A stretch of 64,000 bases of DNA from NCBI RefSeq assembly GCF_029893825.1, contig NZ_JARXXV010000001.1, forward strand, positions 682,001-746,000, in the 5' to 3' direction. Below, piece by piece: positions 10,508 to 44,286 of the stretch (position 1 is the stretch's first letter; every line of letters starts with the position of its first letter). The notes beneath the pieces were generated by a model. It did not search any database. It was given only the letters and a program-made list of their open reading frames with translations, and had not been told where the DNA came from. The translations under genes were made by a program, and so were the position numbers. Source of the DNA: Aurantimicrobium minutum. GTDB lineage: Bacteria; Actinomycetota; Actinomycetes; Actinomycetales; Microbacteriaceae.

Positions 10508-11155
10508 ATGCTTCACGCTTCCGCTTTAGACGGACAGATGGCTGACCTGTTCTCTCAAGTTGGTGTGGTTGTTTTTTACCTCGTGGTGTGGGGACTTGTT
10601 TTCGCGGGGACCGGTCTGTTCGTCGGTGCATTTATCCCCTTCATTACCGGTGACTCTCTCTTGTTTGCCTCTGGCTTGGTCACGGCAGCTACTCCCGAAC
10701 TGAGTATCTGGATCTTGGGCCTTGGTGTGGGTATCGCTGCATTCGTTGGCGATCAAGTCGGCTTTGTGCTGGGTAGACACTTGGGCAGACCCTATTTGGA
10801 TCGCAAGAGTGGACCGCGCATGAAGCGCATCATTGCGCGCGTGGATAAGTTTTATCAGTCCTACGGCTGGTGGTCAGTCGTCATTGCCCGATTCATTCCG
10901 TGGGCTCGTGTTTTCGTTCCCTGGGTTGCCGGCATCGGCAAGATGAACTACTTCAAGTTCCTCACCAGCAACTTCGTAGGTGCTGTTGCTTGGGGTATTG
11001 GTCTGACCTTGGTTGGCTACTACGCAGCGAGTATTCCCGGGGTAAAGGCAGCCGCCTATGTCATTGCTGGTTTCTTCATTACCGCGTCCATCATCTTCAG
11101 CATTCGGACCTGGGTTATTGAACGTCGCGATCGCGCGCAAAACACTGAGAACTAG
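10508..11155 (+). CDS. DedA-family membrane protein (variant lacking the conserved Glu)
   Basis: 215 aa. DedA proteins are inner-membrane transporters or scramblases linked to lipid carriers such as undecaprenyl phosphate and to proton-coupled homeostasis. Visible are the re-entrant segment near residues 32-58, the motif IARFIPWARVFVPWVAGIGKMNY with both conserved arginines, and the C-terminal amphipathic helix. The acidic membrane residue seen as Glu33 in the second copy is Gly34 here, while the GD (48-49) is kept. The start ATG at 10508 has a weak AAAGAG. A second dedA follows 42 bp downstream. Confidence 0.88.
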   Translation: MLHASALDGQMADLFSQVGVVVFYLVVWGLVFAGTGLFVGAFIPFITGDSLLFASGLVTAATPELSIWILGLGVGIAAFVGDQVGFVLGRHLGRPYLDRKSGPRMKRIIARVDKFYQSYGWWSVVIARFIPWARVFVPWVAGIGKMNYFKFLTSNFVGAVAWGIGLTLVGYYAASIPGVKAAAYVIAGFFITASIIFSIRTWVIERRDRAQNTEN

Positions 11156-15970: not shown

Positions 15971-16167
15971 TGAGGCGGAAGCCGCCTGAGAGAACCCTGT
16001 GTAAACAGTCACGAAAGGGCAACAAACACCGCAAATGTCTAGATTTTTCAGGTAAACGCGGAGTAAACTGAACATGACATAACGGGGTGTCGTTTCTATC
16101 GACATTTTCTGATGCCCGTTTTGCTTCTTCCCTGGTGCATCGAAGACACCACTCAAGGAGATTTACT

Positions 16168-16860
16168 ATGACTACGCAGGTTGTCATTCTTGCTGCCGGC
16201 ATGGGTAGCCGTCTGGGCCGCTCGCTACCTAAGCCACTGACTGAACTCAGCGACGGCCGCACCATTATGCAGCAGCAGATGGAGAACATTCGCTTTGCTT
16301 TCGGTGCAGACGTGCACATCACCGTTGTTGTCGGCTACAAGCTCGAGCACATCATCGAAGCATTCCCCGATGTGAACTTTGTCTACAACGAACAGTACGA
16401 CACCACCAACACCTCCAAGTCGTTGATGCGTGCACTGCGTGCGTCCAGCACCGGTGGGGTTCTGTGGATGAACGGTGACGTGGTCTTTGACCCAGCAGCA
16501 CTCGTGCGTGCTTCTGAATGGATCGTTCGCGACCAGTCCTTCGTCTCGGTCAACACTTCTTCTGTCTCTGACGAAGAGGTCAAGTACACCACCACTGCCG
16601 AGGGATACATCAAGGAACTCTCCAAGACCGTCAAGGGTGGTCTGGGTGAGGCTGTAGGTATCAACTACATCTCCGCCAAGGACAAGGCAGTGCTGTTGCG
16701 TCAGCTCACCAAGGTGAACGATCAGGACTACTTCGAGCGTGGTCTTGAGCTGGCCATCGAACAGGACGGTGTCCTGGTTGAGCCCGTCGACATCTCAGAC
16801 CTCTACGCAGTCGAAATTGACTTCGCCGAGGACCTTGAGCGCGCCAACCTCTTCGTCTAA
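16168..16860 (+). CDS. NTP transferase, LicC-like phosphocholine/sugar nucleotidyltransferase
   Basis: 230 aa. The opening VVILAAGMGSRLGRSLPKPL is the NTP-binding and signature loop of sugar-phosphate nucleotidyltransferases. The motifs YDTTNTSKSLMRA, LWMNGDVVFD and VEIDFAEDLERA match the LicC branch that makes CDP-choline or similar activated head groups. The start at 16168 is set by AAGGAG 7 nt upstream; a longer in-frame extension from 16087 has no support. It is followed 35 bp later by an ABC polysaccharide-type exporter. The product may be an activated decoration for an exported glycan; the actual substrate is unknown. Confidence 0.85.
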   Translation: MTTQVVILAAGMGSRLGRSLPKPLTELSDGRTIMQQQMENIRFAFGADVHITVVVGYKLEHIIEAFPDVNFVYNEQYDTTNTSKSLMRALRASSTGGVLWMNGDVVFDPAALVRASEWIVRDQSFVSVNTSSVSDEEVKYTTTAEGYIKELSKTVKGGLGEAVGINYISAKDKAVLLRQLTKVNDQDYFERGLELAIEQDGVLVEPVDISDLYAVEIDFAEDLERANLFV

Positions 16861-16882
16861 GCCCAATACAGCTTTCTAGTCG

Positions 16883-16888
16883 TAGGCT
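16883..16888 (+). promoter_or_regulatory. -10 box, leaderless promoter of ABC exporter
   Basis: TAGGCT, 7 nt before the GTG at 16896, in the 35-bp gap after the nucleotidyltransferase. It suggests the exporter pair can be transcribed separately. Confidence 0.5.
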
Positions 16889-16895
16889 CTATTTC

Positions 16896-17696
16896 GTGAG
16901 CGCAGTTATTGAACAGTCGCCGTATCAACGGTCTTCTTTTGCGCGCTATCGTCACGCCCTGTGGCTACTCACCAGACGTGACCTCAAGGTTCGCTACTCC
17001 ACCAGCGCACTGGGCTATCTGTGGTCCATTCTCGATCCACTCATTATGAGCGGGATTTATTGGTTTATTTTCACGCAGGTGTTCCACCGCGCAGCGGGCA
17101 CAGAACCCTATATCGTCTTCCTGCTTGCTGGTTTGCTGCCGTGGATGTGGTTCAACAGCGCGGTCTCTGATTCCACTCGCGCATTCCTCAAGTCAGCAAA
17201 GCTGGTTCGCTCCACCGCAATTCCTCGCAGTATCTGGGTGGCAAGCATCACCCTAGGCAAGGGCATTGAGTTTTTACTTTCCCTGCCCGTACTAGCTATC
17301 TTTGCCATCCTTGCTGGTGCCCAGCTCAGCTGGGAAGTGATCTACTTCCCACTCGCTATTGCCCTCCAGGCCATTCTCACCTTTGGCATCGGCTTGATTG
17401 TTGCCCCACTTGTGGTGTTCTTCCGTGATCTTGAACGCGTGATCAAGCTATTCCTGCGTTTCTTGTTCTATGCCTCGCCTATCATTTATGCCTTCAGTGA
17501 TCTGCCTGCTGCCATCCAGCCGTGGGCAGCCTTCAACCCACTGGCTGGCATCTTTGATCTCTATCGCGCTGCCTTCTTCCCTGAGGAACTGAACTGGGCT
17601 GTGGTGGGCGTTTCCGCCGCCATGTCAGTAGTGATTTTGATTGCAGGACTCTGGGTATTTACACGTGCTGAACGATCTGTATTGAAGGAGATCTAA
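16896..17696 (+). CDS. ABC-2 type glycan/teichoic-acid export permease (TagG/Wzm-like)
   Basis: 266 aa with six predicted membrane segments. The N-terminal amphipathic start LLTRRDLKVRYSTSALGYLWSILDPL is the hallmark of polysaccharide, teichoic-acid and O-antigen export permeases. The later FLRFLFYASPIIYAFSDLP and FNPLAGIFDLYR are also conserved. It pairs with the ATPase whose ATG overlaps its stop by one base. The GTG start lacks a Shine-Dalgarno but has a -10 box immediately upstream. No glycosyltransferase cluster is present, so the exported polymer must be made elsewhere. Confidence 0.88.
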   Translation: MSAVIEQSPYQRSSFARYRHALWLLTRRDLKVRYSTSALGYLWSILDPLIMSGIYWFIFTQVFHRAAGTEPYIVFLLAGLLPWMWFNSAVSDSTRAFLKSAKLVRSTAIPRSIWVASITLGKGIEFLLSLPVLAIFAILAGAQLSWEVIYFPLAIALQAILTFGIGLIVAPLVVFFRDLERVIKLFLRFLFYASPIIYAFSDLPAAIQPWAAFNPLAGIFDLYRAAFFPEELNWAVVGVSAAMSVVILIAGLWVFTRAERSVLKEI

Positions 17697-18439
17697 TGAC
17701 TTCTTCAGCTGTTATTTCTGTCAGCGATGCGGGCATCCGTTTCCGCCGCAACCACAAGGGACGCCGTTCCTTCAAAGACTTGTTCTCCAGTAAGTCCCGC
17801 CGTTCAAAGCCCAACGAATTCTGGGCCTTGCAGCATGTGAGCTTCGAGGTTCACCCCGGTGAAGCTATTGGCGTGGTGGGACGCAACGGTCAGGGTAAAT
17901 CAACCCTGCTCAAGCTCGTTGCGAACGTACTCATCCCCGATGAGGGTCGCGTCAGCGTCAACGCAGGTGTTGCTCCCCTGATTGAAATCACCGGTGGCTT
18001 TGTTGACGACCTCACCGTTCGTGACAATGTGTATCTCACGGCAGGTCTGCACGGCATGACCCGGGAACAAGTTGCTGCCAAATTCGACGACATCATTGAA
18101 TTCGCCGAAATCGAAGACTTCCTCGACACCCCCTACAAGCACCTCTCCAGTGGCATGAAGGTTCGTCTTGCCTTCTCGGTGGTGACCAGCCTGGAAGAAC
18201 CAGTCTTGCTGGTGGATGAAGTGCTGGCCGTGGGAGATAAGTCTTTCCGCAACAAGTGCTACCGCCGCATTGAAGAAATGCTAGGCGAAGGCCGCACGCT
18301 CTTCTTCGTTTCTCACAGCGAAGGCGACCTCAAGCGTTTTTGCACGAGAGGTCTCTATCTCGACAAGGGCTCCCTCAAGCTCGATGGACCCATCGAAGCC
18401 GTGTTGGATGCCTATAACGAAGATTACCCAGGCCTCTAG
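17696..18439 (+). CDS. ABC glycan/teichoic-acid export ATPase (TagH/Wzt-like)
   Basis: 247 aa. Walker A GRNGQGKST, the unusual signature LSSGMKVRLAFSV, and Walker B VLLVDEVLAVGDKSF match the short Wzt/TagH ATPases. The long C-terminal carbohydrate-binding domain found in some homologues is absent. GAAGGAG precedes the ATG, which overlaps the permease stop (TAATG). A 13-bp inverted repeat right at and beyond its stop is the probable terminator shared with the convergent gcdH. Confidence 0.9.
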   Translation: MTSSAVISVSDAGIRFRRNHKGRRSFKDLFSSKSRRSKPNEFWALQHVSFEVHPGEAIGVVGRNGQGKSTLLKLVANVLIPDEGRVSVNAGVAPLIEITGGFVDDLTVRDNVYLTAGLHGMTREQVAAKFDDIIEFAEIEDFLDTPYKHLSSGMKVRLAFSVVTSLEEPVLLVDEVLAVGDKSFRNKCYRRIEEMLGEGRTLFFVSHSEGDLKRFCTRGLYLDKGSLKLDGPIEAVLDAYNEDYPGL

Positions 18440-43101: not shown

Positions 43102-44286
43102 TTAGGGCGGACTCCAGTCGTAACCATCTATTCGCCAGCAGATCAGTAACCAGCCCCACTGAAAAACGATAAAGAGCAACACCATGAAGCCTCGATACAG
43201 CTTTGACCGTGGTGCTGCCACTGCCCCCAACGCGGGAAAAAGTGGGGCAAGTAGGCGGAAGGTGCTGGACTGGGGAAAGAACACTGCCAGGACATAAAGG
43301 GCATAGCTGGCTAGCCAGAAACGCACATCCACACCCAACCTTTTCACTGCAGGGATGAAGAGGAAGACGGCAAAGCCCAGCACCAGGGCACCCAGCAGCA
43401 CATAACCGGCGACTTCCGGATACCCAAAGCTTGTTGTCCACCACTGGGCAGCATGGATCCAGGGGGTGAAAGGGATCAGTTCTTGGTAGCCAATATAGGC
43501 AGAGCGCCAGGCCAGCTCAGTATCTAAATACGCGTTGGGGATGCCGGTGGCCCAGCCAGCAATAAACATCCAGGCAAACCCTGCCCCGGCAGCAATGACT
43601 GCCACCGCGGCAAGTAGGACACGTTCACGAGTGGGGAATCGTGTTCTCTTGCGTTTTACAAAGCGATATATCCAGTGCAGACCAATTGCCAACGCCACAG
43701 CCAATGCCCCTGGCCTGGTCAGCGAAAGCACAAGCACGACGGGGATAACCCATCCATAGAGCCTGAGTTGCATCAGCAGAATCACCAGAGCAATCAGGAA
43801 AAGCTGCATGGACTCGGCATAAGCCAGCTGGAACAGGGGGGAGACGGGGGACAGAGCGAACAAGACGATGGCAAACAGTGCCTGCTGCGCGGGCACATGC
43901 TTGATCAGGATCTTGTAAAACACAAGAGATGCACCCAGTGCACACAGCACCGAGATCAACACACCCGAGATGCTCCATGGCAATCCCGTGATGAGCATCA
44001 GTGCACGGACAATAACCGGATAGGCGGGTAAGAATGCCCAGGCATTCTCAGCAACGTGACCATCCTCGGTGTAGGGAATGTCGTGCGGATAGCCTGTCTC
44101 GGCAATGATGTTGTACCAGCGACCATCCCACATCGTGGAGAAATCCCAGAGTGAGGGTTGGGCGCCAGTCCAGGCATTTTCTGCCTGCTGGCTGGCCAAC
44201 ACCAGCAGCATGACAGTTGACACTGCACGCCCCAGCAGAAATACCAGGGTGACCTGGAGCCACCACGGCAGTCGAGTCTTTGTCAT
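43102..44286 (-). CDS. Membrane mannosyltransferase-like protein (PIG-V-like)
   Basis: 394 aa with about 10 membrane segments. The first extracytoplasmic loop carries SMWDGRWYNIIAETGYP, a motif of PIG-V-type and related lipid-linked sugar-dependent mannosyltransferases, followed by AFLPAYPVIVRALM. Such enzymes add mannose to glycolipids or proteins outside the membrane. It follows dapE by 14 bp on the same strand, with GGGGG before the ATG, so it may share the dapE transcript. The acceptor is not known. Confidence 0.75.
   Translation of the reverse strand: MTKTRLPWWLQVTLVFLLGRAVSTVMLLVLASQQAENAWTGAQPSLWDFSTMWDGRWYNIIAETGYPHDIPYTEDGHVAENAWAFLPAYPVIVRALMLITGLPWSISGVLISVLCALGASLVFYKILIKHVPAQQALFAIVLFALSPVSPLFQLAYAESMQLFLIALVILLMQLRLYGWVIPVVLVLSLTRPGALAVALAIGLHWIYRFVKRKRTRFPTRERVLLAAVAVIAAGAGFAWMFIAGWATGIPNAYLDTELAWRSAYIGYQELIPFTPWIHAAQWWTTSFGYPEVAGYVLLGALVLGFAVFLFIPAVKRLGVDVRFWLASYALYVLAVFFPQSSTFRLLAPLFPALGAVAAPRSKLYRGFMVLLFIVFQWGWLLICWRIDGYDWSPP

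Follow-up and report, generated by a model that had tools for sequence, protein, structure and literature searches.

An apparently split teichoic-acid-type locus in Aurantimicrobium minutum and a LicC-fold candidate for the role of TagD

In a 64-kb stretch of the Aurantimicrobium minutum genome (the whole of which we call the window; G000:C1:682001-746000, part of a 1.67-Mb assembly), we analysed a three-gene operon on the + strand at window positions 16168-18439, which encodes a nucleotidyltransferase of LicC/PntC fold (NT) and the permease and ATPase of an ATP-binding cassette (ABC) exporter. This trio looks like half of a cluster for a cell-wall polymer, the half for activation and export; the cluster appears to have been split in the lineage of the window, with four partner genes lying about 630 kb away at G000:C1:64868-68842. 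That a teichoic-acid-type pathway is encoded at these two places is well supported, and we hold it to be highly probable. It is likely that NT replaces TagD in this pathway as a non-homologous CDP-glycerol synthase and that the ABC pair exports the polymer. We also lean towards the broader view that NT represents a second, non-homologous invention of CDP-glycerol synthase, of LicC fold and COG1213 class, and that actinobacteria have swapped it and TagD on more than one occasion.

Linkage of the trio with four partner genes

NT was matched in 44 of 60 relatives at E<=0.001, and 32 of them carry an orthologue at E<1e-80; identity to the window copy is 68-83% in the aligned genera of the same family. 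Orthologous permease and ATPase genes follow 3' of NT on the same strand in 26 of the 32 NT-bearing relatives, are divergent from it in two (G040 and G058, of another family), and are not adjacent in four (G017, G043, G050, and G051). The linkage of the three genes is not chance, and the original prediction, which had described a LicC-like nucleotidyltransferase beside a TagGH-type exporter as one unit, stands on this point.

Gene order was compared in named loci, which are the best 80 of at least 553 and therefore favour near relatives; 67 of the 80 are at least 20 kb long. Among these long loci, NT is present in 67, the permease and the ATPase in 65 each, a gene for a TagF-like enzyme in 43, a CDP-alcohol phosphotransferase gene in 48, and the genes of two GT2 enzymes, GT2a and GT2b, in 53 and 48, respectively. 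The recurring order is NT, permease, and ATPase on one strand, followed by TagF-like, GT2b, CDP-alcohol phosphotransferase, and GT2a on the other, so that the two halves converge. In roughly two thirds of the long loci the partners lie with the trio, and the idea of an orphan cassette of just three genes is not supported.

In the genome of the window, the partner cluster comprises GT2a (G000:C1 64868-65884), the CDP-alcohol phosphotransferase (65891-66685; PF01066, 26.9 bits, cut-off 22), GT2b (66738-67571), and the TagF-like gene (67616-68842). The sole PF04464 (TagF-type) match of this genome falls in the last of these, at C1:68066-68578, with 22.9 bits in the genome search and 24.3 bits for the protein (cut-off 22.1). 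Within the genus, six genomes have the TagF-like gene 600-640 kb from NT, and two (G001 and G006) have it on a different contig. The gene lies within 10 kb of NT in 13 of the 60 relatives (G008, G009, G010, G011, G013, G016, G024, G026, G028, G030, G031, G032, and G036) and 62 kb from it in G018. None of the four partner proteins has a homologue in the 64-kb window (tblastn, E<=0.01), in agreement with the earlier statement that no glycosyltransferase is near, and the proposal that the polymer is made by enzymes encoded elsewhere is now probable. The further thought that a teichoic-acid cluster elsewhere might supply all the functions is largely borne out by the four partner genes, with activation and export apparently left to the trio.

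The predicted structure of the TagF-like protein (predicted local distance difference test score, pLDDT, 91.6) has TagF as its best structural match (Z 22.2, 318 residues aligned, 13% identity), followed by a capsule polymerase (Z 21.8) and other GT-B enzymes (about 21). H140, H250, and S306 are invariant and D304 is nearly invariant among 24 sequences. CDP-alcohol phosphotransferases carry the motif Dx2DGx2ARx8Gx3Dx3D, and the partner keeps this PF01066 motif save for its last D, which is H117, near-invariant in 59 sequences.

Beyond close relatives, NT also keeps company with TagF-type enzymes. In G051, a TagF-like domain and NT form one 672-aa protein, the domain being 33% identical over 368 aa to the TagF-like protein of the window's genome. 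A PF04464 enzyme adjoins NT in G017, G043, and G050 (E 3e-85 to 6e-94); those in G017 and G050 score best with the NCBIfam model TarF, reaching about half of the cut-off. G239 and G206 have a TagF-like gene (36%) next to NT, and a glycerophosphodiester phosphodiesterase gene is found 3' of NT in G206 and G051. The neighbours of NT in G058 are a Stealth protein and a TagF/TarS protein, and those of the exporter are two CDP-alcohol transferases and a relative of GT2b. The genes of G040 are arranged alike, including PF04464 in the corresponding position (the Stealth scan covered G058 only). Only G051 is accepted as an NT fusion. Two other long frames look like artefacts of high G+C content: in G043 (963 aa) a PF04464 gene and NT are separate and overlap where the former ends, and in G169 (721 aa) the upstream frame makes no sense of its own.

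Two Cryobacterium loci (C. levicorallinum, L123, and C. flavum, L134) have NT at its usual place; after position 10684, the permease, the ATPase, and the four partners are not in the next 10 kb. In G169 (L151, 3469-16516), the NT orthologue occurs with an ABC exporter, a GT2-LicD protein, and a phosphoenolpyruvate (PEP) mutase fused to a cytidylyltransferase, together with further genes named by eye as LicD-like, phosphonopyruvate decarboxylase-like, and alcohol dehydrogenase-like. The product of that cluster is perhaps a glycan bearing hydroxyethylphosphonate.

Distribution of NT and TagD

TagD (TIGR01518) gave no match in the window's genome at E<=0.001. NT itself is not of the TagD family, since TIGR01518 is absent among its NCBIfam matches and it matches NTP_transf_3. 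For the comparison of genomes, TagD was called strong at 100 bits or more, a limit of our own; the curated TIGR01518 cut-off is 165.4.

A PF04464 or TagF-like enzyme is present in all 32 NT genomes and in 9 of the 28 other relatives. These 41 transferase-bearing genomes divide into 32 with NT only, six with TagD only, none with both, and three with neither (G023, G046, and G057). In G046, one of these three, the PF04464 match lies 1.5 kb from a gene that resembles NT distantly (34% identity over 117 aa). Strong TagD occurs in seven of the 60 relatives, none with NT; the seventh, G041, is without PF04464. The same separation was seen in a sample of 248 genomes from the order, where NT is found in 52 genomes, all with PF04464, TagD in 49, of which 45 have PF04464, and both in none; the TagD genomes without a PF04464 match include G041, G377, G475, and G536. 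At least 14 matched genomes are common to the two samples; without them, the counts for the order are 46 for NT, 43 for TagD, and 0 for both. The curated TagD cut-off is passed by 4 of the 60 and 25 of the 248 genomes, none with NT; G403, counted as without TagD, scores 87.4 bits. Within transferase-bearing genomes, the Fisher p value, which ignores deeper kinship, is 1.9e-5 in the first sample, 7.6e-5 there when counted by genus, and 9e-13 for the order.

In 46 of the 248 genomes, 24 of them NT-bearing, strong TagD is missing but a weaker TagD-like match is found (E<=1e-12, mostly 53-78 bits). As the true supplier, this paralogue was rejected for the family at large: it is absent from 24 of the 32 and 28 of the 52 NT genomes and from that of the window, and the role is possible for it where it is present. 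In G021 and G055 the weak gene stands alongside strong TagD, which suggests another function for it. A weak TagD-like gene (about 61-73 bits) is also found near a CDP-alcohol phosphotransferase-like gene at G043:C3:408603-409627, G011:C2:214869-217035, and G055:C14:401-4710, pairs that possibly belong to a separate CDP-alcohol pathway.

Clusters with either supplier share their other genes. G042 has the order TagF-like, TagD, epimerase, CDP-alcohol phosphotransferase (54%), and GT2b (51%), and G454 has NT, TagF-like, CDP-alcohol phosphotransferase (47%), and GT2b (53%). In G053, which has no NT, TagD is about 8 kb from a TagF-like gene, followed by GT2a, the ATPase (56%), and the permease (45%). 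Two genomes of one family, G547 with NT and G536 with TagD, share a UDP-galactopyranose mutase gene of 80% identity, next to TagD in one and one gene from NT in the other; this pair carries less weight, G536 being without a PF04464 match.

In a tree of TagF-like sequences with 56 rows, which holds two copies from some genomes, the TagD label needs six changes, five of them forced by starred branches. With one copy per genome (49 rows, five with TagD), four changes are needed, and starred branches force each of them. Shuffling the labels gives similar numbers (6.7 and 4.9, respectively), so the supplier type shows no clustering on the tree but is scattered. As paralogues may be among the copies and several of the branches are long, a count of at least five exchanges was given up, and we claim only two clear swaps. 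One is G021, which has TagD and no NT and lies inside an NT-bearing Microbacteriaceae clade; the other is G398 (NT) and G044 (TagD), which belong to one genus and have sister TagF-like genes (99*).

The operon and the fold of NT

The trio is tightly packed. NT (16168..16860, 230 aa; NTP_transf_3, PF12804, 2e-16), the proposed CDP-glycerol synthase on the grounds of its model, linkage, and exclusion of TagD, starts with ATG, with a Shine-Dalgarno-like AAGGAG (16155..16160, found by inspection) 7 bases upstream; a longer reading frame opening with GTG at 16087 is a less likely start. After 35 bases follows the TagG/Wzm-type ABC-2 permease (16896..17696, 266 aa, GTG start; ABC2_membrane, PF01061, 1.4e-17), whose nearest solved chains are Wzm-type 6oih/6m96 and TarG 6jbh. 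The TagH/Wzt-type ATPase (17696..18439, 247 aa; ABC_tran, PF00005, 2.4e-20) is nearest to TagH 7dd0, Wzt-type 6amx, and TarH 6jbh; its ATG shares one base with the stop codon of the permease gene, and an AAGGAG at 17685..17690, again found by inspection on the + strand, lies within the permease gene. Pfam domains and nearest solved chains thus identify an exporter of TagGH type, with scores below every curated NCBIfam cut-off: 159 of 320 bits for TagH, 164.9 of 400 for galactan Wzt (NF050108), and 65.9 of 380 for Wzm (NF050109).

The operon is flanked by DUF3039 and murI genes on one side and an acyl-CoA dehydrogenase gene on the other, both on the - strand. In many Microbacteriaceae, two genes separate DUF3039 from NT (e.g., L036 8721-11524): one for an ABC ATPase-like protein with 23-29% identity to the ATPase of the window, and one of about 520 aa; both are absent from the window's genus, which has DUF3039 directly beside NT. 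Genes outside the window were called with a simple composition script. No conclusion rests on the loci L042, L046, L047, L149, L150, L154, and L155, and L160-L163, L167, L170, L171, L173, and L175 contribute through their gene lists. The Pfam scan covered 15 window proteins, among which a 394-aa membrane-type protein (43105-44286, - strand) had no match; it could be a GT-C-type glycosyltransferase.

The NT model (pLDDT 92.7) is closest to PntC (Z 28.4, root-mean-square deviation 1.9, 222 aligned), and its match to LicC (Z 25.8, root-mean-square deviation 2.3, 217 aligned) is tied with those to other sugar nucleotidyltransferases, namely UDP-glucose pyrophosphorylase (26.5) and GlmU (26.3); inositol-1-P cytidylyltransferase scores 24.7. 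NT thus has a LicC-like fold, and with such close scores among unlike enzymes the fold does not set its substrate. Assignment as GlmU or another sugar nucleotidyltransferase was rejected, the scores being far under the curated cut-offs. R15, K22, and D104 of NT are invariant in 25 sequences and, by motif, appear to correspond to R16, K26, and D112 of CpgD (PMC12275187). The invariant N102-G103-D104 of NT stands where PntC has Glu-Ser-Asp.

Proposed pathway, alternatives, and known systems

From these results we infer what NT acts on, what part each transferase plays, how the polymer is structured, and that it is attached to the wall, as follows. NT would form CDP-glycerol from CTP and a glycerol phosphate, a reaction otherwise carried out by TagD, whose fold is unrelated. 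GT2a and GT2b would help to build a lipid-linked saccharide, to which the TagF-like enzyme, and perhaps also the CDP-alcohol phosphotransferase, would add glycerol phosphate from CDP-glycerol. The permease and ATPase would then move the lipid-linked chain across the membrane, with wall attachment afterwards. Export of a small activated head group, suggested in the original prediction, is not supported.

Several observations weigh against this scheme. The TagF-like gene is not nearby in 8 of 10 Leifsonia loci, and four Agreia loci, Herbiconiux, and four Agromyces loci are without all four partners within 10 kb, the comparison covering these loci and not the rest of the genomes. The TagF-like domain is a divergent one, at 24.3 bits just above the cut-off of 22.1, and other GT-B enzymes match its model only about one Z unit lower. 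In the order sample, both NT and TagD are missing from 40 of the 137 genomes with PF04464, so either a third supplier exists or not all of these enzymes use CDP-glycerol. Many of these 40 genomes belong to one family (f20), where another CDP-alcohol supplier may be found. The weaker TagD-like paralogue (about 55-78 bits), present in 24 of 52 NT genomes of the order sample and 8 of 32 of the first, could make CDP-glycerol in genomes that have one. The occurrence of NT in the LicD/phosphonate-type cluster of G169 means that the family can occur with other chemistries. Finally, nothing fixes glycerol as the substrate of NT; another polyol or glycerate is possible, and the mutual exclusion of NT and TagD could also come from alternative chemistries.

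This last point leads to a different reading, possible but rather unlikely in our view, in which the pathway is kept and NT makes another CDP-alcohol (CDP-ribitol, -arabinitol, or -mannitol, or CDP-glycerate like CpgD), so that NT and TagD mark two polymer chemistries. COG1213 enzymes do take varied substrates, among them phosphosugars, phosphocholine, phosphoglutamine, and phosphoglycerate (PMC12275187, PMC13228409), and the Asn-Gly-Asp of NT resembles the Asn110-Gly111-Asp112 of CpgD, whose Asn110 is described as contacting glycerate (PMC13228409). However, the TagF-like, CDP-alcohol phosphotransferase, and GT2b partners are common to TagD and NT clusters, close TagF-like relatives pair with either supplier, and the glycerophosphodiester phosphodiesterase gene after NT in G206 and G051 also speaks for glycerol.

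It is quite unlikely that the exporter carries an unrelated glycan of galactan or O-antigen type with NT as a mere neighbour: the best NCBIfam permease model is indeed the galactan exporter Wzm, but far below its cut-off, and the four relatives with separated genes contrast with 65 of the 67 long loci, in which NT and exporter are adjacent, with the divergent pairs of G040 and G058, and with G053, which keeps an orthologous exporter with GT2a and a TagF-like gene. Least of all do we expect NT to act like LicC or PntC and to activate phosphocholine or aminoethylphosphonate for the decoration of a polymer. PntC and, in its tie with GlmU and UDP-glucose pyrophosphorylases, LicC are near in fold, and NT of G169 is beside a PEP mutase and a LicD protein, yet the genome of the window gave no PF04991 (LicD) match, Asn102 is invariant where PntC has Glu, and the partners in most families are of TagF/TarF type and not LicD. 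The phosphocholine-type function named in the original prediction is therefore disfavoured.

Returning to NT as the likely CDP-glycerol synthase, the solved enzymes LicC (1jyk) and PntC (6pd1/6pd2) have the same fold, PntC being the nearest by sequence profile and by structure; they differ in that no LicD is found in this genome, in the residue at position 102, and in that NT is not fused to an aminotransferase. CpgD, the CTP:phosphoglycerate cytidylyltransferase of Caulobacter, shares the LicC-like fold class, the Arg, Lys, and Asp residues, and Asn-Gly-Asp, a likeness by motif, but it serves sphingolipid synthesis and makes CDP-glycerate, and no TagF partner is described in the parts of the papers drawn on here (PMC12275187, PMC13228409). 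The bifidobacterial tag cluster is described as holding an ispD-like gene (PMC12286996), possibly a further type of supplier.

A search of the literature, which covered top-ranked matches and few subscription journals, gave no report of a LicC-fold CDP-glycerol synthase, of the NT family, or of the seven-gene locus. TarIJ is a supplier of the CDP-ribitol type. The teichoic acid locus of Streptomyces griseus is likewise an actinobacterial locus with TagF, as far as it is described, but its supplier is TarIJ and not the NT family (PMC13274773). TagD serves as a marker of teichoic acid: for Pontimonas salivibrio, another member of the Microbacteriaceae, the genome paper inferred no teichoic acid, partly from missing TagB and TagD, and it also states that teichoic acid seems to be usual in the Microbacteriaceae (PMC6106888). 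Should NT turn out to make CDP-glycerol, conclusions of this kind from the absence of TagD would need re-examination, and TagD-less Microbacteriaceae would make glycerol teichoic acids that were overlooked by surveys relying on this marker. A supplier would then be named for many actinobacterial TagF-like enzymes without TagD, as a gene replacement in a textbook pathway.

That pathway, the wall teichoic acid synthesis of Bacillus and Staphylococcus (TagD/TarD, TagB/TagF, TagGH), likewise combines a CDP-alcohol supplier, a PF04464 transferase, and a TagGH-type exporter. There, CDP-glycerol is made by TagD/TarD of COG0615, which are not homologous to COG1213 enzymes (PMC12275187, PMC13228409), whereas the supplier here has a LicC-like fold and the TagF-like enzyme is short and divergent. 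The locus described here also includes a CDP-alcohol phosphotransferase and two GT2 enzymes, and in this genus its genes are split between two places.

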